Source: Pontiellaceae bacterium B1224 (GTDB lineage Bacteria > Verrucomicrobiota > Kiritimatiellia > Kiritimatiellales > Pontiellaceae). Taken from it: a stretch of DNA of 37,866 nt. A model generated the notes under the pieces. It was not told the origin of the DNA, ran no database searches, and saw nothing but the letters and a program-made list of their open reading frames with translations. The position numbers were made by a program, and so were the translations under genes. Below, piece after piece: positions 767-33,417 of the stretch; the first letter of the stretch is position 1, and every line of letters begins with the position of its first letter. Location: NCBI GenBank assembly GCA_029432815.1, contig JAROBA010000046.1, forward strand, positions 1-37,866, written 5' to 3'.

Positions 767-2989
767 TTAGTCGTCTGTGTAGATAATAATCACACCACGC
801 CGCGATAGCGATACTATGGTGTCATCCTCGCGGAACTGCTCAGATACGGTCAGTATTCTCAGGTTCTGCAACCAGTTTAGATTGGAAGAGATTGTCAGCC
901 CTTCAATGCCGCTGATATCCAGCGTCCGCAGTTTGGAATATTTGAGAATGTTGGAAATGTTCCGGATGTTGGTTTTGCTGATGTCCAACGACTGGAGGCT
1001 GGCCATCTGACCGAGATTAAAGAGGTGGTTCAGCTGGGACCCACCGAGCCGGAGTTCAACCATCCCCGTTTCGGTGAGCAGATTAAGGTCCGGTGCTCCA
1101 ATGTTACCGGCATTCAGCATAAGGATTTTCAGGCCGCACAGGGGCGAAATATTGTCCAGCTCCGGATTGTTGCCCATATCGATGATCCAGCCATTGGAAC
1201 CGGTGGGCTGCCATTGAAAATGCAGTTCAGTCACTTCCGGGTTCAGCAGTTTCAGCGATTCCGCCAGAGCCGGGAAGCGGGTTTCCGGATCGAATGGAGC
1301 TTTGTTGAGCTGATAAAACAGACGGGGCAGTCCTTCGGCAACGTTGTAGGCCACAAAATCTTTCACCAGCTGCGGCAGTTCTGTATCGGTGATCGGCCCG
1401 AGCTCCATATATTTTTTGGCCAGTCGAATGGCCGGCGGATTTTTCTGAACCGGAAAACCGTGTTCGCCCGATAAAATGTTCCATGCATTGGAAAAATCGA
1501 GCTGAGCCAGCAGGAGCTTTCCTTTGGCGAGCCAGGCACTTCCAAGGGATGGATCAAAGGCCAGCGCAGTTTCGAGCGACTCTTCGGCGTTTGCAAAGGC
1601 ATAGCTGGTTTCCTGCTGCTGCATCAGATTGAGATAATCCGGTGCCACCCGTTGGGCTGTCCGTTCAATATATTCGTTCTTTTCCTGTAGCTTTGCCAGC
1701 GCATTGACAGCCACTTTCTCGCTCTGGCGGATGGAACTGAAGCTTTGAAAAAGGGCTCCACCAATAACCAGAACCGTGGCGGCAATCAGGCCGACGGCCA
1801 GTTTATGCCGTTTGACGAGCAGCAGGGCGTGCGTGATGAAGGTCGGATTCTCCGCAATGGTTGCAAAGCCATCCTGATATTTATGAACATCGGTAATCAG
1901 TGCGGCGACATTGGGATAACGATCGGAGGGATCGGTGGCCATGGCTTTCATGGCAATGGCACTGAGCGGTGCAGGAATTTTCTGCTCCGGGGCCCGTTTT
2001 CCAGGGATTGGAAAATCGCCGCGCACGGTTTTCTGCAGAACCTCTTTTACGGTGCTGCCTTCGATGGGGCAGTGAAACGTCAGGATTTCGTAGAGCAGCG
2101 ATCCCAGCATGTAGACGTCGGTCTGGAAGTCGATATCGGAAGGGACTCCCTGCGCCTGTTCGGGCGACATATAGCCCGGGGTTCCGCCCACCACGTTTTT
2201 ATGTTCCCGCCGTTTGGCATTCTTTTCCAGATAGCGCGTCAGGGTTTGTCCATTTTCAAGCGAGACATCGTCCATACTCTGCCAGGACACCGGCTCGCCA
2301 TCATATTCATTCAGATGCGTGATCAGCGTGGAGAGCCCCCAGTCGAGCACATGGACATCGCCGAAATCGCCGATATTGATATTCGAAGGCTTCAGGTCGA
2401 GATGAATGACGCCTTTCGTGTGAGCATAATCAATCGCATTACAGACTTTCAGAAAAATGGCCATCAGTCGGGTGCGGGTAAAGCGCCCGGTGTATTCCGG
2501 ATTTCCATGGCGCAGCTGCTTAATGATATCGCCCAGCGTTTCGCCTTTGAGCGCTTTCATAGTGAAATACGGATTTCCGTTTTCATCCAGTGCAATATCG
2601 TAAATCGGGATAATATTCGGATGCTGCAGATTTGCCGTGAGGCGGGCTTCGTAGAGAAAGGAATCGATATCCTCTTCGGAGGCGATTTTGGAATCCTGGA
2701 TCAGGGCCATAGCCACTTTGCGCGCGGTTCGATGATCATCCACCTCCCAGATTGCCTTCATTCCTCCCTGATTCAGCTTTTTATTGGCGGAATAGCGTTC
2801 TTCGGGATTTCCGTCCATCAGGCCATCGCGATTCGCGGCCGGCTTTTCGTGCAGGTCTTCTTCGAACAGAATTTTTTCGGTGTTGGAAAAGATTATGTCA
2901 TCGGCGAAAAGGTTGGCATTGCCGATTTCGCGGGAGGGAGCCTGTGTCTTATGATCTGGCTTTGTATCGTTTTTTTCCGAATCGTCCAT
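767..2989 (-). CDS. Membrane Ser/Thr protein kinase with C-terminal leucine-rich repeats
   Basis: A 740-residue protein. Residues 66-375 form a Hanks-type kinase domain: a glycine-rich loop variant (NQGGMKAI, 73-80), catalytic loop HLDLKPSN (196-203, Asp198), DWG in place of DFG (216-218) and GTPGYMSPE (269-277). The usual VAIK lysine is missing: the position reads VAMA (92-95), although Lys91 is close by. One membrane segment lies at about 397-416, then a coiled-coil/TPR-like part and leucine-rich repeats from about 620 to the end, presumably periplasmic sensing or interaction domains. ATG at 2989 is preferred because the longer frame would translate a dispersed palindrome (2995-3009) in the leader. 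Two more copies of that palindrome are inside the gene (1479-1493 read as SNAW; 1999-2013 read as PIPG). Coupled to the downstream ECF sigma gene. Confidence 0.85.
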   Translation of the reverse strand: MDDSEKNDTKPDHKTQAPSREIGNANLFADDIIFSNTEKILFEEDLHEKPAANRDGLMDGNPEERYSANKKLNQGGMKAIWEVDDHRTARKVAMALIQDSKIASEEDIDSFLYEARLTANLQHPNIIPIYDIALDENGNPYFTMKALKGETLGDIIKQLRHGNPEYTGRFTRTRLMAIFLKVCNAIDYAHTKGVIHLDLKPSNINIGDFGDVHVLDWGLSTLITHLNEYDGEPVSWQSMDDVSLENGQTLTRYLEKNAKRREHKNVVGGTPGYMSPEQAQGVPSDIDFQTDVYMLGSLLYEILTFHCPIEGSTVKEVLQKTVRGDFPIPGKRAPEQKIPAPLSAIAMKAMATDPSDRYPNVAALITDVHKYQDGFATIAENPTFITHALLLVKRHKLAVGLIAATVLVIGGALFQSFSSIRQSEKVAVNALAKLQEKNEYIERTAQRVAPDYLNLMQQQETSYAFANAEESLETALAFDPSLGSAWLAKGKLLLAQLDFSNAWNILSGEHGFPVQKNPPAIRLAKKYMELGPITDTELPQLVKDFVAYNVAEGLPRLFYQLNKAPFDPETRFPALAESLKLLNPEVTELHFQWQPTGSNGWIIDMGNNPELDNISPLCGLKILMLNAGNIGAPDLNLLTETGMVELRLGGSQLNHLFNLGQMASLQSLDISKTNIRNISNILKYSKLRTLDISGIEGLTISSNLNWLQNLRILTVSEQFREDDTIVSLSRRGVIIIYTDD

Positions 2990-2994
2990 ATTTA

Positions 2995-3009
2995 TTCCAA
3001 ACCTTGGAA
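2995..3009. repeat. TTCCA-N5-TGGAA motif in the kinase leader
   Basis: An exact copy of both arms of the dispersed motif, spacer AACCT, ending 6 bases upstream of the kinase ATG at 2989. Its AAGG on the minus strand is the nearest purine run to that start, so it may overlap the ribosome binding site. Confidence 0.8.
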
Positions 3010-6905: not shown

Positions 6906-7541
6906 TTATTTACCTCGGCTGTAAGATGCCACCCGCCCGTCATAGGTATCGAGCAACAGCACGATATCAGACGGGCTTTCAGAAAGGCAGGCAATGAAAA
7001 GATTATCGGTGAGTGAAAATGTAAGGTGCATGCCGTGCGCAAGATCCGGGGAAGTGTATTCCCAGATCGGCCAAACGGCATGTTTGCCCAGAAAAGTCAG
7101 TTGTTTGCCGGCTGCCGCTTCCAGCTTCCAGCGAAGCCACGGGCTTCGCCAGCCCACCCAGCTGACGGCCGCCCACGATTTCTGTTCGCCCATGTTGCGA
7201 TACGGAATGTCCGCCACCGCAATTTCAGAAGCCGCGGCGAGTTTTTTCCAATCATTGGAAGCCGTGCTTTCCGCCAGTGAATTACCGGCACCGAGCGCTT
7301 TATCCAGCTGATTGCACACCGGACTTTGCAACAGCTCCTCCAGAGTGTTAGCTGTGAAAACAAACGAAGCCTGCTGCGGAATGGCATTGCAAACCATGCC
7401 TTGCTGAAACGGCTGGATAAAAGAATAGACAACGATGACGCCCACAAACAGTGCGCCCAGTCCAATTGTGATTCCAAATTTAATTTTTCCGCTCATCAAT
7501 TTTTTACAGAATAATTTTCTGCTCCTCCGGAATGGAACCAT
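6906..7541 (-). CDS. Unknown membrane-anchored protein, possibly C-terminally truncated
   Basis: No family recognised. 211 residues from ATG 7541, which has AGGA four bases upstream; ATG 7496 (MSGKIKFG) is an alternative but has no Shine-Dalgarno. One transmembrane segment (FGITIGLGALFVGVIVVYSF, about 22-41) places the rest in the periplasm. The soluble part (QASFVFTANTLEELLQSPVCNQL) has the look of the N-terminal part of large DUF3352-like PVC proteins, and the abrupt end (YDGRVASYSRGK) hints at truncation. It contains a dispersed motif (7246-7260), read in frame as SNDW. It lies 38 bases after pyrD and 2 bases before the lipoprotein gene. Confidence 0.55.
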   Translation of the reverse strand: MVPFRRSRKLFCKKLMSGKIKFGITIGLGALFVGVIVVYSFIQPFQQGMVCNAIPQQASFVFTANTLEELLQSPVCNQLDKALGAGNSLAESTASNDWKKLAAASEIAVADIPYRNMGEQKSWAAVSWVGWRSPWLRWKLEAAAGKQLTFLGKHAVWPIWEYTSPDLAHGMHLTFSLTDNLFIACLSESPSDIVLLLDTYDGRVASYSRGK

Positions 7542-7579: not shown

Positions 7580-8494
7580 TTAGATCTTCACGCTACCGAC
7601 AATGTCATATACGGATCGGTGGCCCTTTTCAACGAGGTAGTTTTCAATGCCGTCAATCACCCGGTCAATCGTGGTTGGGTCAATAAAGTTGGCCGTGCCG
7701 ACAGCAACGGCGGTCGCTCCCGCAATCAGGAACTCGATCGCGTCTTCCGGCTCGAAGATGCCGCCCATTCCAATGATTGGAATATTGCAGGCCTGCGCCG
7801 CATCGAACACCAGTTTAATGGCAATCGGTTTAATCGGGGGGCCGCTGAGACCGCCGAACTTGTTCGCCAGTTCCGGTTCGAGCGTATCAATGTTGATCGC
7901 CATGGCCGGCATCGTGTTCATGATGGCAATGGCATCCGCACCGCAGTCTTCAGCCGCTTTGGCAAAAGCTCCAATGTTTGGAACATTCGGCGCGAGTTTC
8001 GGAATAATCGGCTTTTTCGTTTTGGCACGAACCAGATCAATTACGCTGGAAAAAGTTGCCACGTCAGTTCCGAAGGCGGAGCCGCCTTCTTTTACGTTGG
8101 GGCAGGAGAGGTTGATTTCGTAGGCGCTGACGGTTTCTTCGCCGTCGAGCATGTCAACCACACGACCGTAGTCGTCTTTGCCTTTTCCCCAGATGTTCAC
8201 AATCACAGGCGTGTCGTACTGACTGAGGAACGGGACGTATTTATCAATGAAGCCCTGCGCGCCCGGCCCGGGCAGACCGATCGCATTCAGCATGCCGCCG
8301 CGCGTTTCGAAGGTGCGGGGCGTTGAATTTCCGACATGCGCTTCGGGGCAGATGCCTTTCACGGTAATCGCGCCGAGGCGGTTCAGATCCACCAGATCGG
8401 CATATTCCGGTCCATAGCCGAAGGTCCCCGACGCCACCGTCACGGGATTCTTCATCTCCATAGAACCGATTTTAATTTTCAAATCAACACTCAT
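7580..8494 (-). CDS. pyrD: Dihydroorotate dehydrogenase, class 1B catalytic subunit
   Basis: A 304-residue FMN-binding TIM barrel that oxidises dihydroorotate to orotate in pyrimidine synthesis. Visible hallmarks are NPVTVASGTFGYG near the N-terminus, TPRTFETRGGMLNAIGLPGPG, the active-site loop NLSCPN with the catalytic cysteine of class 1B (Cys131), and the C-terminal phosphate-binding segment IIGMGGI...AGATAVAVGTA. Length is normal for the class. It lies nine bases after the electron-transfer subunit gene pyrK, with which it forms the NAD-dependent heterotetramer. Translation probably starts at ATG 8494. Confidence 0.96.
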   Translation of the reverse strand: MSVDLKIKIGSMEMKNPVTVASGTFGYGPEYADLVDLNRLGAITVKGICPEAHVGNSTPRTFETRGGMLNAIGLPGPGAQGFIDKYVPFLSQYDTPVIVNIWGKGKDDYGRVVDMLDGEETVSAYEINLSCPNVKEGGSAFGTDVATFSSVIDLVRAKTKKPIIPKLAPNVPNIGAFAKAAEDCGADAIAIMNTMPAMAINIDTLEPELANKFGGLSGPPIKPIAIKLVFDAAQACNIPIIGMGGIFEPEDAIEFLIAGATAVAVGTANFIDPTTIDRVIDGIENYLVEKGHRSVYDIVGSVKI

Positions 8495-8503
8495 TCTAAA
8501 ACC

Positions 8504-9283
8504 TTATTCTTCCCAGAGGATTTCGCGGGATTCAAAGATGGGGCCGTCTTTGCAGCAACGCGCCCATTCCCACCCATCGTCCGTTTTGCGCTTAATCACG
8601 CAGGTTAGGCAGGCGCCGACGCCGCAGGCCATGTTTTTGTCGAGCGAAAGCCACGCCGTAAAATTGTTTTCAATCGCGCGGTCGCCGATCGCTTTAAGCA
8701 TCGGGTTCGGGCCGCAGACAAAAACTTCCAATGATTGGAAATCCTGCTCGGCCGCCCACGGATCAAACGCGTCCGTGACAAGACCTTTGGTGCCAAGAGA
8801 GCCGTCGTCGGTGGTGGGGCGGACTTCCCAGCCGAGGGCTTCGAATTCCTTTACGAGAAGAATATCGATGGCCGAGCGGCCGCCGAAAAAGGCGATGCCT
8901 TTCTTTCCCATCCGTTGCGCCAGAATGTAGAGCGCGGCATTGCCATAGCCTCCGGCCACCAGCACGGGGGTTTTATTCGGATCGGGGTCCGGATAGCCGT
9001 TCCCGAGCGGGCCGATGATGTTAATCTCATCGCCCACCTGAATGGCGGCCATGGCATCGGTTCCGCGGCCGACCGATTTGTAAAGGACGGCTACGCCCGA
9101 TTTGTCGGCCTGATAGATTGAAAACGGGCGGCGCAAAATACGTTCTCCAAGCCTTGGAACTTCAAGGTGGAGAAACTGACCGGGCTGCACCAGCGGACCC
9201 ACCACGGGAGCCGACAGGCGCAGAATACGATATTCGCCCTGAAAATTGTCATGTTCGAGTACGGTTGTTTTTTCCTGTTTCAT
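8504..9283 (-). CDS. pyrK: Dihydroorotate dehydrogenase B electron-transfer subunit
   Basis: A 259-residue ferredoxin-reductase-type flavoprotein that passes electrons from dihydroorotate dehydrogenase to NAD. FAD-binding part: RRPFSIYQ (51-58). NAD-binding part: VLVAGGYGNAALYILAQ and FVCGPNPMLKAI. The [2Fe-2S] cluster cysteines are Cys220, Cys225, Cys228 and Cys243 or Cys244 (CGVGACLTC...ARCC). The dispersed motif at 8726-8740 is read as FQSLE (182-186), immediately before VFVCGPNP, and a one-mismatch copy at 9145-9159 is read as PRLG near the start. The sequence fits the family around both sites, so the motif does not disable the protein. Confidence 0.94.
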   Translation of the reverse strand: MKQEKTTVLEHDNFQGEYRILRLSAPVVGPLVQPGQFLHLEVPRLGERILRRPFSIYQADKSGVAVLYKSVGRGTDAMAAIQVGDEINIIGPLGNGYPDPDPNKTPVLVAGGYGNAALYILAQRMGKKGIAFFGGRSAIDILLVKEFEALGWEVRPTTDDGSLGTKGLVTDAFDPWAAEQDFQSLEVFVCGPNPMLKAIGDRAIENNFTAWLSLDKNMACGVGACLTCVIKRKTDDGWEWARCCKDGPIFESREILWEE

Positions 9284-9328: not shown

Positions 9329-9343
9329 TTCCAGCGATTGGAA
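9329..9343. repeat. TTCCA-N5-TGGAA motif, pyrK upstream region
   Basis: Exact arms, spacer GCGAT. Lies 46 bases upstream of the pyrK ATG in the divergent intergenic region 9284-9469. Confidence 0.85.
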
Positions 9344-9396
9344 ACAACGCGTGGCTGGGTTGGCAATTGCATGAATAATTTGTAATCAGAAAAATT

Positions 9397-9411
9397 TTCC
9401 AGTCGTTGGAA
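9397..9411. repeat. TTCCA-N5-TGGAA motif, pyrK/autotransporter intergenic
   Basis: Exact arms, spacer GTCGT. It is the second copy within 83 bases, between the divergent pyrK and autotransporter genes, where promoters in both directions must lie. Confidence 0.85.
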
Positions 9412-9469
9412 GTTTCTGGCAAGTTGTCCGGGTTATTCAACGTCCGCATTGGGCAGATCGAGGTTTTTT

Positions 9470-12400
9470 ATGAAGTTTACTAAGTTTTGGATTTTTCTTT
9501 CGTGTGCAATTTCAACGGTCACCGCTTTCGGGCAGGTGGTGGTGAGTAATTCAACTGACATAACTCAGGATGCGGATTTGGGAACCTCCGATTTATTTAT
9601 CGGATATTCGAATTCCGATGTTGAGCTGTCTGTTGACGGAGCGACCCTTACGGCCTGGGAGGTTGGGCTGGGCGTTTCTTCCAGCGCAACCAATAACACG
9701 CTGAGTTTTGATGGAGGGGTAGGCACGTTTTCCAGTTACCTGACTGTGGGGAGTGGAGGCTCAGAAAACGAACTGATTATTGACGATGATTCTACGGTGA
9801 CTTCATACCATGGAATCATTGGATATTCTGATGGTGCTGACGGGAACTCTGCGGAGGTAACAGACGACTCCTCCTGGGATGTCACCAGCGTGCTGACGGT
9901 TGGCGAGGAGGGCGCTTTCAACTCCTTGTATATTGCAGATGATTCTGCGGTGACTTCACACCATGGAATTATTGGCAATAAAGATGATGCTGAAGGGAAC
10001 TCAGTGGTGGTCACGGACGAATCCTCCTGGGATGTCACTGACATATTGACGGTTGGAGAGGAAGGCGCTTTAAACTCCTTGCAGATTACAGATGAGTCCG
10101 CAGTGACGGCGAATACGTTGAATATCGGTGTCCTGGACACGGCTACGAGTAACACTGTTCTGGTTTCTGATTCCACGCTGGATGTGGCGGATTCAATCCT
10201 CGTGGGAAAATACGGGGGTGGGAATCAGCTGGTCATCACCAACGGCGGCACCGTTTCCTCTGCGGAGGGGGGGGTAGGCAGCCAGGATGACGATTATGAA
10301 GATCGCGAAGATGACGACAATACTGTTCTTGTGACCGGAGAGGGTTCGAGTTGGACGATTGACGGTGATTTGGGAATCGGAACCGAGGATAATACAGGAA
10401 ACTTTGTTGTCGTGACCAACGGAGGTTCCATTGCCGTGGATTCTCTGGTGATTGTTGGTGAAGATAATGGCTTTGACCTTAATAAAGATGGCCTGCTGAC
10501 CGTTGCGTCCGATTTCAATGCTTCGATGACGGGCTTTAGTTTTAATGTTGGCAGCGCACTCTATGTTGGGGGCGAGCTGACGGGCATGACGAATAGTATT
10601 GAAGAGGGCCGGACCTTAGGTATCACGGAAGGCGGAAACTGGGACCAGAGCGGATCCAATGTCACGGTGGGCGGATCTTCCTCGGACAGTGCATTGGTTG
10701 TTGAAAATGGTGGAACCGTGACGCTTGCGGACCTGCAGATCGGTGCCGTGAGTAATACCGGCAATTCGGTCGTTGTGTCTTCTGACGGAAAAATCATGGC
10801 GGACCACGTTGCGATTAGTGGAACCGATAACACGCTTACTGTTACTAACGGTGGCTGGTTGATGGTGGATAACGATTTTAATGCGGGTATGACCGGATTT
10901 GAATTCGGCCCGGGCGGTGTGCTTGAAACAACAGGTACACTGACGGGGATGACCAATACGCTTGAGGATGCGCGTGAGATTCGTTTGAGCGGCGGAAGCT
11001 GGGATGTCGGCAATGAATTAGTGATCGGTGCCAGTACTTCAAGCAATGCGGTCTACGTCACAGGCGGGGGGCTGCTTACCAGTGCAGAGGCCTCGATTGG
11101 CGGGCAGGGGCAGGACAACATGGTTTGGATTCAGGGGGTAGGTTCGCGCTGGGATACCGAAGCGCTGGAGATTAGTGGATCTGGAAACTCGCTGACCATT
11201 TCCGATGGAGCCTTGGTGAATGCAACGGGAGCCTTGTTGTTGCAGAATAATGCCACGCTTTCTTTTTCATCGAACGGAACGGCAACGGCCGGCAGTTATT
11301 TTCAGGATTCAACTTCCGTGCTGGAGTTCAATTCCATAACCAATGTGGCGTTTGATCCCGGTGATGCCCTTGTTGATGCGTCTGGAGGTACCGTTGAATT
11401 CGAAACCGATGCAACCATTGCGTACACCGGAGTTATTGGTGATATCGATGTTGGCGTGACCAATAGCCGGCACATTGCTTCTTTCTCTTCTCTGGTTGTT
11501 GGAGGTGTGACCAACGCCTCCGGTACAGATTTGGATCTGTTAAACGGCATTATTATAAACGGTTTGTTAGAATACGATTTTATCTCTCAATCTGATGAGC
11601 TGTATATGCAGTTTTTCCGTCAGAGCCTGGCCGAAAGTGCCGGGTTTCAGACGAATACCCAGATGTATGTGATCAGCGATGAGATTGATCTGCTGGCCAC
11701 TGATGGGAATCAGGCGGCAGTCAACCAGCTCGAAATTCTGGGCACTATGAGCGGCGCGCAGCAGAACACGCAGCTGACGCAGCTGTATGAACAGACCGCA
11801 CCGGCTTACGCCCATATGGACGGGATGCTCGACGGGATGCGACAGGTGAAGAGCCGGGGGATCATGCCGGATTCAATGTGGCCGGTCGGTCCGAACGGCC
11901 CTCACCTTTACGGAAGGCAGGTGCAGGTCTGGATGAAGGGATACGGCACCTGGGCGAGCCGCGACGGCGAGGGTGCAAACTCGTCCTACGACCAGTCGAT
12001 CTATGGCGTCGTGCTTGGTTTCGATAAAGCCTTCGGCGATATTCTGGTCGGGTTGGCAGGCGGATATGCATCTTCCGATATCAGTCAGGACAATGGCGAC
12101 AGCAGTAAAGCCGGCACGGGATATGGAGTGCTCTACAGTTCCTGGGGGACCTCCGACTGGTTTGCGGATGGAAGTGTGGCCTTTGGTCTGGGTTCGGTGG
12201 AGAATGATTCCGGAACTGTTTTTGACACCTCGTCCGAGACGGATGCCAGCCAGTTTGCATATAATCTGAGCGGCGGGAAAGAGATGGTCTTTATGGAAGA
12301 CCGGATGTTCCTCACACCTTCGGCCGGTATTCTGGGCGGTTTGTATTCACAGGATGCATACACCGAAAAATCATCCAATGCAGTGGCCAAACAGGTTGAT

Positions 12401-12742
12401 TCATACAGCCGGTGGAGTTTTCAGTCGGAGCTGGGTGTACAGGCCGCATATCATAAAGAGCTGAAGAAAAATGTATTGATGCCCGAGGTGCATGCAAACT
12501 GGCTGCATCAGTTTAACACCGATGCCGATCAGCTGGGCTATTCTCTGGTAGGCGGAACCGGCGGATTCAATTTAGACATGCAGGCCCCTGTTTCTGATCT
12601 GTTCGAAGTTGGCGTTGGACTCACCCTTTGGTCCGAGAGCAAAAAAGGGACCGTATCCGAATGGGTGCTCGGTCTCGACAGCCGCTTCGGCGATGGCTAC
12701 AGCGCAACCGCCTTCAACGCCCGGCTGGTGCTGGAGTTCTAA
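9470..12742 (+). CDS. Autotransporter with repetitive passenger and C-terminal beta-barrel
   Basis: A 1090-residue protein. ATG 9470 is preferred over an in-frame start 21 bases upstream because GAGG sits correctly before it and the signal peptide (KFTKFWIFLSC...STVTAFG) then begins directly. Residues about 30-750 form a repetitive beta-helix-like passenger built from units such as VTDESSWDVTDILTVGEEGA and LVITNGGTV, including two near-identical 51-residue repeats. Residues about 818-1090 form an autotransporter beta-barrel (QVWMKGYGTWASRDGEG..., ending in RLVLEF with terminal Phe). The barrel inserts in the outer membrane and exposes or releases the passenger. The passenger's target cannot be told. 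No catalytic motif was seen. Confidence 0.88.
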   Translation: MKFTKFWIFLSCAISTVTAFGQVVVSNSTDITQDADLGTSDLFIGYSNSDVELSVDGATLTAWEVGLGVSSSATNNTLSFDGGVGTFSSYLTVGSGGSENELIIDDDSTVTSYHGIIGYSDGADGNSAEVTDDSSWDVTSVLTVGEEGAFNSLYIADDSAVTSHHGIIGNKDDAEGNSVVVTDESSWDVTDILTVGEEGALNSLQITDESAVTANTLNIGVLDTATSNTVLVSDSTLDVADSILVGKYGGGNQLVITNGGTVSSAEGGVGSQDDDYEDREDDDNTVLVTGEGSSWTIDGDLGIGTEDNTGNFVVVTNGGSIAVDSLVIVGEDNGFDLNKDGLLTVASDFNASMTGFSFNVGSALYVGGELTGMTNSIEEGRTLGITEGGNWDQSGSNVTVGGSSSDSALVVENGGTVTLADLQIGAVSNTGNSVVVSSDGKIMADHVAISGTDNTLTVTNGGWLMVDNDFNAGMTGFEFGPGGVLETTGTLTGMTNTLEDAREIRLSGGSWDVGNELVIGASTSSNAVYVTGGGLLTSAEASIGGQGQDNMVWIQGVGSRWDTEALEISGSGNSLTISDGALVNATGALLLQNNATLSFSSNGTATAGSYFQDSTSVLEFNSITNVAFDPGDALVDASGGTVEFETDATIAYTGVIGDIDVGVTNSRHIASFSSLVVGGVTNASGTDLDLLNGIIINGLLEYDFISQSDELYMQFFRQSLAESAGFQTNTQMYVISDEIDLLATDGNQAAVNQLEILGTMSGAQQNTQLTQLYEQTAPAYAHMDGMLDGMRQVKSRGIMPDSMWPVGPNGPHLYGRQVQVWMKGYGTWASRDGEGANSSYDQSIYGVVLGFDKAFGDILVGLAGGYASSDISQDNGDSSKAGTGYGVLYSSWGTSDWFADGSVAFGLGSVENDSGTVFDTSSETDASQFAYNLSGGKEMVFMEDRMFLTPSAGILGGLYSQDAYTEKSSNAVAKQVDSYSRWSFQSELGVQAAYHKELKKNVLMPEVHANWLHQFNTDADQLGYSLVGGTGGFNLDMQAPVSDLFEVGVGLTLWSESKKGTVSEWVLGLDSRFGDGYSATAFNARLVLEF
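9785..10090 (+). repeat. Two tandem 153-bp repeats inside the autotransporter passenger
   Basis: Units 9785-9937 and 9938-10090 are highly similar, each encoding 51 residues, and a diverged third unit starts at 10091 (GATGAGTCCGCAGTG). The period is a multiple of three, so copy-number change would keep the frame. Confidence 0.85.
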
Positions 12743-12860: not shown

Positions 12861-12875
12861 TTCCAATGATTGGAA
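12861..12875. repeat. TTCCA-N5-TGGAA motif, autotransporter downstream region
   Basis: TTCCAATGATTGGAA: identical to the coding-strand copy in the gene at 6906-7541. It lies between two GTAGGGA-family palindromes. Confidence 0.85.
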
Positions 12876-15028: not shown

Positions 15029-15043
15029 TTCCAAAGGCTGGAA
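15029..15043. repeat. TTCCA-N5-TGGAA motif with extended arms
   Basis: Spacer AAGGC. The flanks extend the inverted repeat to 11 bp per arm (CGCGGTTTCCA / TGGAAACCGCG, about 15023-15049), the longest palindrome of the set. Confidence 0.85.
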
Positions 15044-15098
15044 ACCGCGTTCGTGCAGCAGTCGACTGTACGGAACTGACAGGTGCTCAGCGCGTGCC

Positions 15099-15113
15099 TT
15101 CCAATGCTTGGAA
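15099..15113. repeat. TTCCA-N5-TGGAA motif, lepA upstream
   Basis: TTCCAATGCTTGGAA, 83 bases upstream of the lepA ATG. Confidence 0.85.
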
Positions 15114-18505: not shown

Positions 18506-18520
18506 TTCCAGAATCTGGAA
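18506..18520. repeat. TTCCA-N5-TGGAA motif in the rpsT leader
   Basis: TTCCAGAATCTGGAA lies 12 bases after the promoter -10 box and 27 bases before the rpsT ATG. It would form a 5' hairpin in the mRNA, or an operator overlapping the start site. Confidence 0.85.
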
Positions 18521-18865: not shown

Positions 18866-18958
18866 TTAGAGTTTTAGGTTTTAAGTGGTTAAGTTTTAGG
18901 TCGAAGGGTTCCAATGCCTGGAAACTTAAAACCTGAAACGTAACTCTTAAAACTGCTG
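18866..18958. repeat. Heptamer-armed inverted repeat with a dispersed motif in the loop
   Basis: The left arm (AGTTTTA-GGTTTTA-AGTGGTT-AAGTTTTA) is roughly complementary to the right arm (CTTAAAACCTGAAACGTAAC, then TCTTAAAACT). The loop contains TTCCAATGCCTGGAA at 18909-18923. The arm sequence closely matches the arms that flank the four-helix-bundle gene at 26769-27170, so this looks like the same element without its gene. Confidence 0.7.
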
Positions 18959-22342: not shown

Positions 22343-22814
22343 TTTTCTTCCGCCCCAGAAGATCCGCATCAGCTTCTCTATAGAGGTCGGCGGCAGGCAG
22401 GGCGGCGGCGCCGGCGGTGACGGTTGGGAACTTTTGTTTCGCCATCACGCGCTCGACAAACTTCCAGGCATTGGAAAGTTCCGTCTCCGGAAGCAGAACT
22501 GCAAATTCATCGCCGCCGATCCGGCACACAATATCGGCCGCGCGCGCGGTGGACATCAGGATCTCTGAAAAATGCTTCAGCACGGAATCGCCCTCCGCGT
22601 GCCCGTTGGCATCGTTTATCTGCTTAAAACGATCAATATCGAAAAGGACGAGGCTGAGCGGCCGGTCGTAGCGCGTGGCGGTTTGGATGTGATCAGCCAG
22701 CGTCTCGTTAAAGTAGCGGCGATTATAGAGTCCGGTCAATCCGTCGCGGGTGGCCTGTTCGCTCAGTAGCATCAGGGTCAGCCAGAGCAGGGGATTGGTT
22801 TCGGAATCATTCAT
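22338..22814 (-). CDS. Stand-alone GGDEF diguanylate cyclase
   Basis: A 158-residue protein that is nearly all GGDEF domain: DGLTGLYNRRYF, FDIDRFKQIND, then RAADIVCRIGGDEF with both the active-site GGDEF and the inhibitory RxxD site five residues upstream. It should make cyclic di-GMP; there is no sensor domain, only a short hydrophobic stretch (LLWLTLMLL). The end (READADLLGRKKR) is a little shorter than usual and is encoded by the edge of the GTAGGGA-type repeat. A dispersed motif at 22462-22476 is read as SNAW (114-117). The ATG overlaps by one base the stop codon of the YdcF-like gene. Confidence 0.85.
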   Translation of the reverse strand: MNDSETNPLLWLTLMLLSEQATRDGLTGLYNRRYFNETLADHIQTATRYDRPLSLVLFDIDRFKQINDANGHAEGDSVLKHFSEILMSTARAADIVCRIGGDEFAVLLPETELSNAWKFVERVMAKQKFPTVTAGAAALPAADLYREADADLLGRKKR

Positions 22815-24500: not shown

Positions 24501-24533
24501 TTTCCAATGTTTGTAAAATCACTTTAATCCGTC

Positions 24534-24548
24534 TTCCAGTCATTGGAA
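24534..24548. repeat. TTCCA-N5-TGGAA motif, argJ leader
   Basis: TTCCAGTCATTGGAA ends 15 bases before the argJ ATG, directly ahead of its GAGGAG ribosome binding site. Confidence 0.85.
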
Positions 24549-24563: not shown

Positions 24564-25745
24564 ATGTTTTCAGAAATTCATATGCCGAAAGGATTTAAAT
24601 GTGCCGGTATTTCGGCCGGTATCAAAGCGTCGGGCATCAAGGATATGGCGTTTATCTTCTCGGAGTTGCCGGCCGCCGCGGCCGGTGTTTTCACGACCAA
24701 TCAGGTTTGTGCTGCACCGGTTAAAGTGTGCCGGGCTCACTTACAGCACGGCGTGGCCCGGGCGATTGTTATGAACAGCGGCATTGCCAATGCCTGCACC
24801 GGATCCGCCGGCATGGTAGCCGCAACAGATATGGCGGCCGAAACCGCCAAGGTGATCGGCTGTGAACCGCAGGAAATTTTTGTCTGCTCCACCGGAAAAA
24901 TCGGCCCGCAGCTTCCGCTCGAAAAAATAATTGCAGGCATTGGAAAGCTGTTCGATGTCGCCCTCATTGAAAATGTGCAGGACACCGCTGAGGCCATGAT
25001 GACCACCGACACACGACCGAAGGTTGCTGTGGAGGAACTGCATATTGAAGGCAAGTCGGTCCGGATTGTTGGTTTTGCTAAAGGGGCCGGCATGATCGAA
25101 CCGAACATGGCCACGATGCTTTCCTATATCACCACTGATGCCGCTGTTGAACAGCACGCCCTGCAGGCGGCACTCAAAAGGGCGGTAGACTCCAGTTTTA
25201 ACCGGATCTCAATTGACGGCGACCAGAGCACCAACGATACAGTGCTGGCGTTGGCGAACGGTGCGGCTGAGAACCGGCCGCTGGATGAAAGTTCCCATGA
25301 CTGGGGTGTATTTTTCCAGGCATTGGAAAAAGTGTGTTTCGAACTGGCCATGATGATTGTGCACGATGGCGAGGGGGCCGATAAATTTGTGACGGTCAAT
25401 GTGACAGGGGCGGCGTCTGCTGAAGATGCCGAGCTGGCTGCCCGTGCCGTAGCCAATTCCATGCTGAACAAAACTGCCTGGGCCGGCTGTTATCCCGACT
25501 GGGGGCGCATTATGGATGCGATCGGGTACTCCAAAGCCAGGGTAATCGAAGAGCAGGTGGATATCTTTTATGACGATACACAGGCGGTGGCCGGCGGTTG
25601 TTTGTCGGGCGTTGCACAAGAAGACTTGATTAAGGTGGTCTCGCAAACGGATTTTGCTATAAACATCAACCTGCACATCGGGGACGGGGAGGCCGTGGTT
25701 TACACCTGCAACTGCACCGAGGAATACGTGCGGATTAATTTTTAA
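24564..25745 (+). CDS. argJ: Bifunctional ornithine acetyltransferase / N-acetylglutamate synthase
   Basis: A 393-residue self-cleaving enzyme that recycles the acetyl group in arginine synthesis. GMIEPNMATMLSY holds the nucleophile Thr184, where the precursor splits into alpha and beta chains. Other family blocks are MNSGIANACTG, CSTGKIG and the C-terminal CNCTEEYVRINF, ending in the usual asparagine-phenylalanine-like tail. ATG 24564 is chosen because GAGGAG precedes it by eight bases; the upstream in-frame start would lie inside a dispersed motif. A second motif copy (25314-25328) is read as FQALE (251-255) in a conserved helix without any length change. First gene of the arginine cluster. 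Confidence 0.95.
   Translation: MFSEIHMPKGFKCAGISAGIKASGIKDMAFIFSELPAAAAGVFTTNQVCAAPVKVCRAHLQHGVARAIVMNSGIANACTGSAGMVAATDMAAETAKVIGCEPQEIFVCSTGKIGPQLPLEKIIAGIGKLFDVALIENVQDTAEAMMTTDTRPKVAVEELHIEGKSVRIVGFAKGAGMIEPNMATMLSYITTDAAVEQHALQAALKRAVDSSFNRISIDGDQSTNDTVLALANGAAENRPLDESSHDWGVFFQALEKVCFELAMMIVHDGEGADKFVTVNVTGAASAEDAELAARAVANSMLNKTAWAGCYPDWGRIMDAIGYSKARVIEEQVDIFYDDTQAVAGGCLSGVAQEDLIKVVSQTDFAININLHIGDGEAVVYTCNCTEEYVRINF
25314..25328. repeat. TTCCA-N5-TGGAA motif inside argJ
   Basis: TTCCAGGCATTGGAA, identical in sequence to the copy at 22462-22476 in the GGDEF gene. A further near-copy with one arm mismatch is at 24931-24945 in the same gene. Confidence 0.85.
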
Positions 25746-29392: not shown

Positions 29393-30601
29393 ATGAAAGT
29401 GGTACTCGCTTATTCCGGCGGTCTCGACACCACCGTGTTGCTGACCTGGCTTCAGGAAAAATATAACGCAGAGGTCATCTGCTACTGCTCGAATGTCGGG
29501 CAGGAAGAGGAACTCGATGGCTTGGAAGAAAAGGCCCTCAAACATGGCGCGGTTAAGTGCTATGTGGACGACGTTCAGGAAGAGTTCGCTGCCGACTACA
29601 TCTATCCGATGATGCAGGCCAACGCGATCTACGAGGGAACCTACCTGTTGGGTACCTCCATTGCGCGTCCGCTGATCGCCAAGCGCATGATCGATATTGC
29701 CAAAGCCGAAGGCGCCGAAGCCATCTGCCACGGTGCAACCGGCAAAGGCAACGACCAGGTTCGTTTCGAACTGACGGCCTATGCGCTGATGCCCGATGTG
29801 AAAGTGATCGCTCCATGGCGTATGCCGGAAGACTTCCCGTTTGAAGGTCGCACCGACATGATCAACTATCTGAAAGAGCGCGGCATTCCGACTGCCGTAT
29901 CAGCGGCGAAGCCCTATTCGATGGACCGCAACATGCTGCACATCAGCTTCGAAGGCGGCATTCTGGAAGATCCGTGGAATGAACCCGATGAAGATATGTG
30001 GTGCATGACCAAGCCGTTGAGTCAGGCGGCGGACGAAGCAGAGAATGTTGAAATCAGCTTCGAAAAAGGAATTCCGGTTGCGGTCAACGGCGAAAAGCTG
30101 GGCGCTGCTGCGTTGCTGAAAAAGTTGAACGCTCTCGGTTGCGAGCATGCAGTCGGTCGTATCGACATTGTTGAAAACCGTTTCACCGGCATGAAAGACC
30201 GTGGCGTGTATGAAACTCCCGGCGGAACCATCCTGCAGCACGCACACCGTGCGCTGGAATCCATCTGCATGGACCGCGAGGTCATGCACATGCGCGACGG
30301 TTTCATCTCCAAGTATGCCACGCTGGTGTATAATGGCTTCTGGTTTGCTCCTGAGCGCGAAATGCTGCAGTCAGCCATCACCCAGAGTCAGGAAACGGTG
30401 ACCGGCGACGTGCGCGTTAAGCTCTACAAGGGCGGCGTACACGTGAGTGGTCGACGTTCCCCTTATTCGCTCTACAGCCCCGAGCTGGTGAGTTTCGACG
30501 AAGCAGGTGGATACGACCAGTCCGACGCAACCGGCTTCATCAAACTCAACGCCCTGCGCCTGCGCGTGGGTGCAACGATGAAGGCTCAGACGAACGGATA
30601 A
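29393..30601 (+). CDS. argG: Argininosuccinate synthase
   Basis: A 402-residue enzyme joining citrulline and aspartate with ATP. Hallmarks: [18 protein letters not shown] (pyrophosphate loop SGGLDT), [58 protein letters not shown] and the C-terminal [20 protein letters not shown]. Length and order are those of the standard family. AGGAG lies ten bases before ATG 29393. It closes the arginine cluster. The next gene of the pathway, argH, is not in the window. Its terminator at 30621-30657 includes a dispersed motif. Confidence 0.97.
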
Positions 30602-30608
30602 CGTTTGT

Positions 30609-30623
30609 TTCCAGACATTGGAA
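30609..30623. repeat. TTCCA-N5-TGGAA motif after argG
   Basis: TTCCAGACATTGGAA, eight bases after the argG stop codon and seven bases before the copy that forms the terminator stem. Confidence 0.85.
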
Positions 30624-30657
30624 AGGGTTCTTCCAACCATTGGAAGAGCCCTTTTTT
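30621..30657 (+). terminator. Intrinsic terminator of argG with a dispersed motif as its upper stem
   Basis: AAGGGTTCTTCCA / TGGAAGAGCCCTT pair over 13 bp with one G-U, closing on the spacer ACCAT, followed by a T run. The upper part of the stem is an exact TTCCA-N5-TGGAA copy at 30631-30645. Confidence 0.9.
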
Positions 30658-31958: not shown

Positions 31959-32373
31959 TTGGAGGTGATTGGGCCGGCGCAAAAACGACCGCCCATTGCT
32001 TTCGAAGCCCGACTTCCAACGTCTGGAATTATTCAGCTGCAGGCCGGAACAGAAACCCGGATTATATTCGACGGTCGTATTATCGGCGGACAGCGCGGCT
32101 ATTCCATTAAACTCGACCATCCGCCCAAAGGATTCAGCACCGAGAAAAATGGATGGATCGGCAAACAGAAGCTCAAGGAAAAAGATAAAAACGGGAAAGA
32201 CCGGTTTGAGAAAAATAAGGCTGCCGGAGGCATTGTGATTACCGTGGACGAATCTGTCGCTCCCGGCACACAGCTCAGTCTGGTGGTCGCCGCAGAAGTA
32301 CGAAGCGGAAAAGATAAAATCTACTATCCCGCCCCGGCCATCACTCATCAAAGTGATCAAAAAGAAAAACTAA
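31959..32373 (+). pseudogene. Fragment of an unknown protein, frameshifted near its end
   Basis: Not recognised. The frame is open upstream of 31959 and has no proper start. It encodes PIAFEARLPTSGIIQLQAGTE...IIGGQRGYSIKLDHPPKGFS..., probably a beta-sandwich, then VVAAEVRSGKDKIYYPAPAI. At about 32343-32346 one extra base shifts the frame: the expected end IKVIKKKN and stop 32371-32373 lies in the next frame, as shown by a related relic at 33679-33768 that ends IPIKVIRKK. Two dispersed motifs lie in it (31950-31964 with one mismatch; 32014-32028 read as PTSG). Confidence 0.55.
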
Positions 32374-32454
32374 TCGAATGCTCATTTAGCATTAATCGGT
32401 TGGTAGCGGTCAACGATCATGAATCTTCCCAATTATTAAACAGGGAGATTTACC

Positions 32455-33417
32455 ATGATAAAAAATATACTCACAACCATGAGCGTTGCTGTTGTTGCAA
32501 CGTGTGCAATGAATGCCTCAGCCCTCAATATCGTTCTCACAAATGATGACGGCTATGAAACTGAAAACATCCAGGCCCTATACTCCGCACTGACCAATGC
32601 AGGGCACGATGTCATCATGAGCGCACCGAAAGGCGCGCAAAGTGGAACCTCAGGAATGATCGAATTTCTGGCCCCGGTTGAAGTCGGAGAAACCAATGGG
32701 CAATACTATGTGGATTCCACACCTGCCGCATCCGTGCTTTACGGTATTGACGTGTTGGCGATGAATAAGTGGGGCGCATTCCCGGACCTCGTGCTTTCCG
32801 GGCCCAATGAAGGTAATAATATTGGTCTGGTCACGCCGCATTCCGGAACGATTGGTGCGGCCGTTGCCGCCATCAACAAAGGCATCCCAACCATTGCCCT
32901 CAGTGCAGAAGGGGCAGATGAATATGCTGCCGAAGTTGTGGCTGAGCTGACCGTTCAACTGGTTGCTTCCTTGGACGAAGGCAGAGGTCCGCTTCTTCCT
33001 CCGAATACCGGGCTGAATGTGAATATGCCGGCCATTGCGGAAGGACAGACCACTGACGATTTCAGCTTCGAAATGACAAAAATCGGCACGGCTGCACCCT
33101 TTGGGCTGCAGTTTTCGGATGATCTTTCCATGGACCCCGTTGTCTATTACTACCTCGTGATTGAAGGCGGAATGCCGGAAGACTATTTCTTCCAGGTTTA
33201 TGGAGGAAAAGCCGGTGTTGCCATTGCTTCGCCCTACACCATGGGTGGCTATCCGGAAGATCGGAATAAAAGTTCTGAAGGCAATGTGTTTGAGGATGGC
33301 GACAAAGTCACGGTCAGCGTGATCGAAGGAACCTATCAGGCGGACAGCCGCAAAGAAGCACTGGTGAAAGGCAAATTGATGAAAATGTCGAAAGGCAAAA
33401 AACACTGCCGCAGATAG
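32455..33417 (+). CDS. Secreted SurE-type 5'/3'-nucleotidase
   Basis: A 320-residue protein with a signal peptide (KNILTTMSVAVVATCAMNASA, cleavage after residue 23) fused to a SurE domain. The mature part starts with LNIVLTNDDGYETENIQAL, holding the metal-binding Asp31-Asp32, followed by SGTSGMIEF, DLVLSGPNEGNNIG, HSGTIGAAVAA and GIPTIALS, all SurE landmarks. SurE enzymes release phosphate from nucleoside monophosphates with a divalent metal. The usual SurE is cytosolic, so export suggests phosphate or nucleoside scavenging in the periplasm. ATG 32455 follows AGGGAGATTTACC. The C-terminal extension is basic (KMSKGKKHCRR). Confidence 0.85.
   Translation: MIKNILTTMSVAVVATCAMNASALNIVLTNDDGYETENIQALYSALTNAGHDVIMSAPKGAQSGTSGMIEFLAPVEVGETNGQYYVDSTPAASVLYGIDVLAMNKWGAFPDLVLSGPNEGNNIGLVTPHSGTIGAAVAAINKGIPTIALSAEGADEYAAEVVAELTVQLVASLDEGRGPLLPPNTGLNVNMPAIAEGQTTDDFSFEMTKIGTAAPFGLQFSDDLSMDPVVYYYLVIEGGMPEDYFFQVYGGKAGVAIASPYTMGGYPEDRNKSSEGNVFEDGDKVTVSVIEGTYQADSRKEALVKGKLMKMSKGKKHCRR

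Follow-up and report, generated by a model that had tools for sequence, protein, structure and literature searches.

A 15-bp palindrome iterated through coding and intergenic DNA in Kiritimatiellota and the putative dimeric DNA-binding protein that may read it

The DNA uptake sequences of Neisseriaceae (DUS) and Pasteurellaceae (USS) occur in thousands of copies with an intergenic excess, and their coding copies arise by substitution and affect protein sequence. Chi, KOPS and matS are genome-wide motifs selected inside coding DNA, while operator arrays of global regulators, such as those of Lrp at pap, consist of 15-bp odd palindromes that are flanked by A/T-rich DNA and lie on the same face of the helix. 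Rickettsia palindromic elements (RPEs), which are also found in genes, and REP sequences are insertions. For the cyanobacterial palindrome HIP1 (GCGATCGC), spread by nucleotide substitution has been reported (Robinson 1997, as cited in PMC4390886) and a repair-bias model has been put forward (PMC4390886).

We analysed a 37,866-nucleotide stretch of DNA from Pontiellaceae bacterium B1224 (Kiritimatiellales; contig JAROBA010000046.1; hereafter, the window). Its argJ gene (24564..25745, plus strand; Pfam ArgJ, E=3.7e-136) carries the 15-mer TTCCAGGCATTGGAA at 25314-25328 on the plus strand, read as FQALE. Allowing at most one mismatch, the window holds 53 matches to TTCCANNNNTTGGAA, compared with 1.15 (s.d. 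1.2) in dinucleotide shuffles. The genome, assembled at 5.38 Mb in 204 contigs, contains 2,088 copies of TTCCARNNNYTGGAA, compared with 3 for a reversed-pattern control. The full consensus in a 610-kb sample is TTCCAR-N-S-N-YTGGAA, that is, a palindromic TTCCA and TGGAA separated by five bases; 281 of 296 copies carry C or G at the centre S, and R is A in 76%. This consensus, TTCCARNSNYTGGAA, is neither HIP1 nor one of its stated variants. A literature search found no paper describing the motif or palindromes of this kind in Kiritimatiellota, and the motif system is apparently undescribed.

The first-pass annotation had read the motif in conserved genes in three frames, and its readings were right: FQxLE in argJ and in pyrK (FQSLE, 8726..8740, minus strand), SNxW in a Ser/Thr kinase gene (SNAW, 1479..1493, minus strand, a near-copy one base off the R/Y consensus), in gene 6906-7541 (SNDW, 7246..7260, minus strand) and in a GGDEF gene (SNAW, 22462..22476, minus strand), and PxxG in the kinase gene (FPIPGK, 1999..2013, minus strand). 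The position it gave for the second SNxW copy, 6906, is the end coordinate of that gene, the motif itself lying at 7246, and its PxxG list missed two pyrD copies, one read I-P-I-I-G-M (7768..7782, minus strand) and one at 7969 with one mismatch. A further copy is read LPTSG in ORF 31959-32546 (32014..32028, plus strand). Between genes, single copies lie directly upstream of the kinase gene (2995..3009), at 12861..12875, at 18506..18520, where A at the centre is a rare departure from S, and at 18909..18923, and two more stand at 15029 and 15099 (15029..15113). Two copies (9329 and 9397; 9329..9411) separate the divergent pyrK and autotransporter genes, the latter (9449-12742) encoding an autotransporter beta-domain protein of 1,097 residues with both copies in its upstream region. 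Immediately upstream of argJ, copies at 24502 (one mismatch) and 24534 form a pair 32 bp apart (24502..24548), and a 22-bp pair at 30609 and 30631 (30609..30645) directly follows gene 29393-30601.

Base substitution has placed the motif in hundreds of protein genes, and it is kept even where it dictates amino acids. Codon alignments of ArgJ, PyrK and PyrD with as many as 27 congeners, and of the GGDEF protein with relatives, showed the sites to be replacements. ArgJ and PyrD showed no indel at the motif in any aligned congener, in keeping with the ungapped fit to the family helix that the first-pass annotation had described for the argJ segment. The argJ motif recurs in two congeners with another centre base (G035 and G127) and in one with other codons (G300). 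In PyrK, a few motif-less relatives differ in length at the site or a few codons upstream, which does not amount to a clean insertion of a five-residue motif in the motif bearers.

We compared the coding sites with two related genomes, G226 and G246, and with G087, which is nearly motif-free (~10 copies in 3 Mb). Six window sites (kinase 1999, gene 6906-7541, pyrD, pyrK, GGDEF and argJ) are ungapped in all three. The pyrK motif is kept in G226 and G246 and absent from G087; the copy in gene 6906-7541 is perfect in G226 and G246, with 6 mismatches in G087; the GGDEF copy has 0, 1 and 10 mismatches, and the kinase copy 5, 3 and 5, in G226, G246 and G087, respectively. Across the 610-kb sample, 66 of 68 coding sites are ungapped in G226, 72 of 73 in G246 and 46 of 47 in G087, the last being not a sister genome, so that single sites may be losses there instead of gains here, which leaves the no-indel result unaffected. 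This gap rate equals that at random positions of the same genes (~1%), and the copies therefore arose by replacement. Thus, the tested coding copies differ from Rickettsia-type palindromic elements, which add residues, as the first-pass annotation had held; the alignments refute the alternative that every copy is a clean insertion of at least 15 bp. At orthologous sites, G087 has 1-10 mismatches, most often 4. The PyrD peptide IPIIGM is invariant, with the motif present in this genome, G226, G246 and G297 and absent from G289, G050 and G087, so the pyrD motif is only a synonymous codon choice. Recent gains, visible with well-conserved flanks, look stepwise in sequence comparison, and replacement may have proceeded by point mutation or short-tract gene conversion.

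Outside pyrD, the motif imposes residues on proteins. Synonymous shuffling within genes left 19 (s.d. 4) copies, compared with 170 observed in coding DNA. In 175,868 residues here FQxLE appears 84 times, and it appears 53 times in G226 and 43 times in G246; the 89,977 residues examined in G087 contain it once. The control peptides ELxQF and FQxxLE occur here once and twice. At residue-conserved sites between G226 and G246, motif codons were compared with the same codons elsewhere: CCA was conserved in 19 of 20 cases (4.8 expected), GGA in 20 of 20 (6.9 expected) and TTC in 26 of 27 (16.8 expected). Nucleotide identity between the two genomes is 0.92-1.00 in the arms and 0.93 at the centre S, compared with 0.49-0.70 at the R and N positions and a four-fold background of 0.47. 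The arms and central G/C are under strong DNA-level conservation, while the N positions drift. Residues across a proteome are here clearly set by a signal at the DNA level and not by protein function.

Using a simple hexamer caller trained in the analysis for genes outside the window, we assigned 181 of the 296 sampled copies to coding DNA (0.34/kb). All three phases are seen on coding strands (83 FQxLE-type, 71 PxxG-type and 27 SNxW-type). Intergenic density in the 610-kb sample is 2.07/kb between divergent, 1.37/kb between tandem and 1.05/kb between convergent genes. Copies are evenly distributed along genes and Poisson-distributed over 10-kb windows (variance/mean 1.0), and close pairs are in excess, with 16% of gaps below 150 bp compared with 9.6% in simulations. 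Separately, samples of G000, G226 and G246 show a density peak of 3.35/kb at 0-20 bp past stop codons, where constraint is weak.

Near-sites from three genomes tolerate the same changes. Positions 1/13 and 3/11 seldom vary, while 0/14 and 4/10 do: the outer T can be replaced and the A at position 4 can become G, the second T and second C being nearly invariant. This pattern reads as the profile of a putative protein half-site. The two halves do not covary: R/Y half-site combinations number 168/116/12, compared with 172.6/106.9/16.6 expected under independence, positions 7/9 are complementary in 65 copies compared with 86 expected, and double mismatches are compensatory in 8 cases and not in 8. 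In the sense orientation of coding DNA, pairable G..T copies are about as frequent as unpaired A..C copies. Such independent variation of the half-sites shows that the motif is no conserved hairpin.

In other families of the class, where many copies lie in arrays of 2-7, and on some viral contigs, copies are spaced mostly 21-22, 31-32 and 41-42 bp apart, corresponding to 2, 3 and 4 helical turns. Pairs within 150 bp are in phase in 69 of 77 cases in other families (22 expected) and 41 of 51 on viral contigs (14.6 expected), in regions chosen for holding arrays, not for spacing phase, so that array frequency there is unrepresentative; the window genus gave 41 of 95 (27 expected). A viral scan allowing spacings of 20-45 bp returned 13 contigs, on which the reported pairs are only 21-22, 31-32 or 41-42 bp apart, although the full set of close pairs on these 13 also has a few at other spacings, 36 and 45 bp among them. 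Arrays of 4-6 copies were observed on L328, L333 and L336, contigs classed as viral of which some may be host DNA. In G012, G056 and G160, coding density is 0.03-0.08/kb compared with 1.4-2.5/kb in intergenic DNA (G090, G104 and G118 were left out of these densities, their gene calls being too poor). The motif-poor G038, G059 and G265 hold pairs or triples spaced 31-32 bp. Two G038 loci were noted in passing: a 32-bp pair in the 3' part of an ArsR-like minus-strand frame (L197:6799-6845), read by eye as FPVVGK and FQALE, and a HARE-HTH protein gene just downstream of another 32-bp pair (L196:10995-12005), a possible lead to a binder. The genes adjoining arrays are functionally unrelated, with no common theme, which argues against a specific regulon. 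Sites on one helix face suggest that the proteins bound there would cooperate.

High counts are confined to one class among 289 genomes of the phylum, the sampled genomes being mostly metagenome assemblies. On a tree of ArgJ, PyrK and PyrD, density among congeners ranges from 1-5 to 388 per Mb, and sisters differ markedly (G035 229 and G297 66 per Mb; G289 62 and G295 5 per Mb), so that gain and decay are both fast. No other palindrome dialect with 6-bp arms was found in 292 kb of a motif-free congener. Two large congeners assembled in 5-6 contigs, L008 (G289, 8.7 Mb) and L018 (G309, 7.4 Mb), have intermediate densities of 62 and 91 per Mb. The contrast between motif-bearing and motif-free congeners provides a natural experiment on how such a signal spreads.

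On the basis of the substitution origin, DNA-level conservation, independent half-sites, central G/C, in-phase pairs and ~2,000 copies, we propose, with a probability of about 0.68, that the motif is recognized by a putative dimeric, sequence-specific DNA-binding protein acting genome-wide. A homodimer would read half-sites of approximately (T/a)TCC(A/g)(A/g)-N, the dyad being occupied by a G/C base pair, and neighbouring dimers on the same DNA face would cooperate. The set of sites might be maintained by a global role of the protein, in nucleoid organization or global regulation, or by preferential recombination of motif-bearing DNA. In the window genus, mainly intergenic arrays may have been the source from which the motif entered coding DNA where the protein tolerated it. 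Counting against this reading, the genes adjoining arrays have no theme in common, and a copy number that differs among congeners by as much as 1-5 and 388 per Mb is odd for an essential site. Profiling of the Lrp/AsnC, Fur and LysR families across motif-rich and motif-free genomes did not find a candidate binder. Lrp/AsnC is nearly universal, mostly single-copy and has a near-identical HTH in motif-free G087, and so does not discriminate. TTCCAATNATTGGAA looks like a Fur-family 7-1-7 box, but Fur is absent from motif-rich G012, G065, G118 and G160; a LysR T-N11-A site was likewise rejected, a LysR-type protein being absent from motif-rich G012, G065, G160, G003 and G029. The in-phase arrays of relatives are ready-made bait for finding the protein. 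More tentatively, and with the balance somewhat against it, the motif could represent a new chromosome-wide recognition code in Kiritimatiellota, with a putative protein multimerizing on one DNA face and selection rewriting hundreds of proteins in one genus.

An uptake-sequence-like molecular drive, in which the motif marks DNA preferred in natural transformation and spreads by point mutation and biased recombination with no chromosomal function, would account for the thousands of copies, the gain of coding copies by substitution with residues overridden, the intergenic excess and the fast turnover between species. ComEC is present in motif-rich genomes, with G118 the sole exception, but it is equally common in motif-free ones (51 of 52 genomes overall) and does not discriminate. 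Uptake signals would not be expected to form in-phase arrays of 2-7 sites, some of which lie in otherwise motif-poor genomes, and, to our knowledge, no uptake sequence known so far is a palindrome; we therefore regard such a drive as unlikely.

We consider it improbable that the motif is a HIP1-like by-product of methylation-directed repair, with a methyltransferase and mismatch repair turning near-matches into matches. In its favour, the repair-bias model was put forward for HIP1, another highly iterated palindrome for which spread by substitution is reported (PMC4390886). However, single-mismatch variants of the motif are plentiful (for example, 144 per Mb at position 0/14), not depleted, motif-less orthologues are mostly 4-9 positions away from it, far more than a single repair step would bridge, and the in-phase arrays are left unexplained.

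An RNA hairpin, acting as a transcription terminator or mRNA structure, would fit the high density just past stop codons, yet the arms show no conserved pairing, neither covariation nor an excess of complementary positions 7/9 nor a preference for pairable copies, and no loop requires the fixed central G/C, making it a very remote prospect. Equally hard to credit is a mobile or inserted element of the REP or Rickettsia type, palindromic and highly repeated as the motif is, which is refuted for coding copies by alignments with no indels above the random rate, while spacers and flanks are not common to copies and copies arise within invariant peptides by synonymous change.

Read as the site of a dimeric DNA-binding protein, the motif can be set beside the described systems. 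RPE and REP sequences are likewise palindromic and repeated, but they are insertions, whereas the tested coding motif copies are replacements. As with Lrp arrays at pap, a 15-bp odd palindrome with A/T-rich flanks is repeated on one helical face; however, the motif sites number thousands, many of them coding, and the Lrp/AsnC orthologue is not discriminating. Like Chi, KOPS and matS, the motif is genome-wide and selected inside coding DNA but, being symmetric, it cannot give direction, and its density is Poisson over the sampled stretches. With DUS and USS it shares thousands of copies, intergenic excess and coding copies gained by substitution, and it differs from them in being palindromic and arrayed in helical phase. 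HIP1, whose function is unresolved, is similarly a dense palindrome, genes included, that is reported to spread by substitution and is low in some relatives. The HIP1-type features of gross genome-wide over-representation, including coding DNA, and gain by substitution are both present, and we conclude that the motif is probably HIP1-like or uptake-sequence-like in its evolution. The purpose of highly iterated palindromes has been open since HIP1, and the motif system makes that question testable outside cyanobacteria, in a different lineage and with a different sequence: a gapped palindrome of 15 bp in which the central G/C is fixed and which forms in-phase arrays at 2-4 helical turns.
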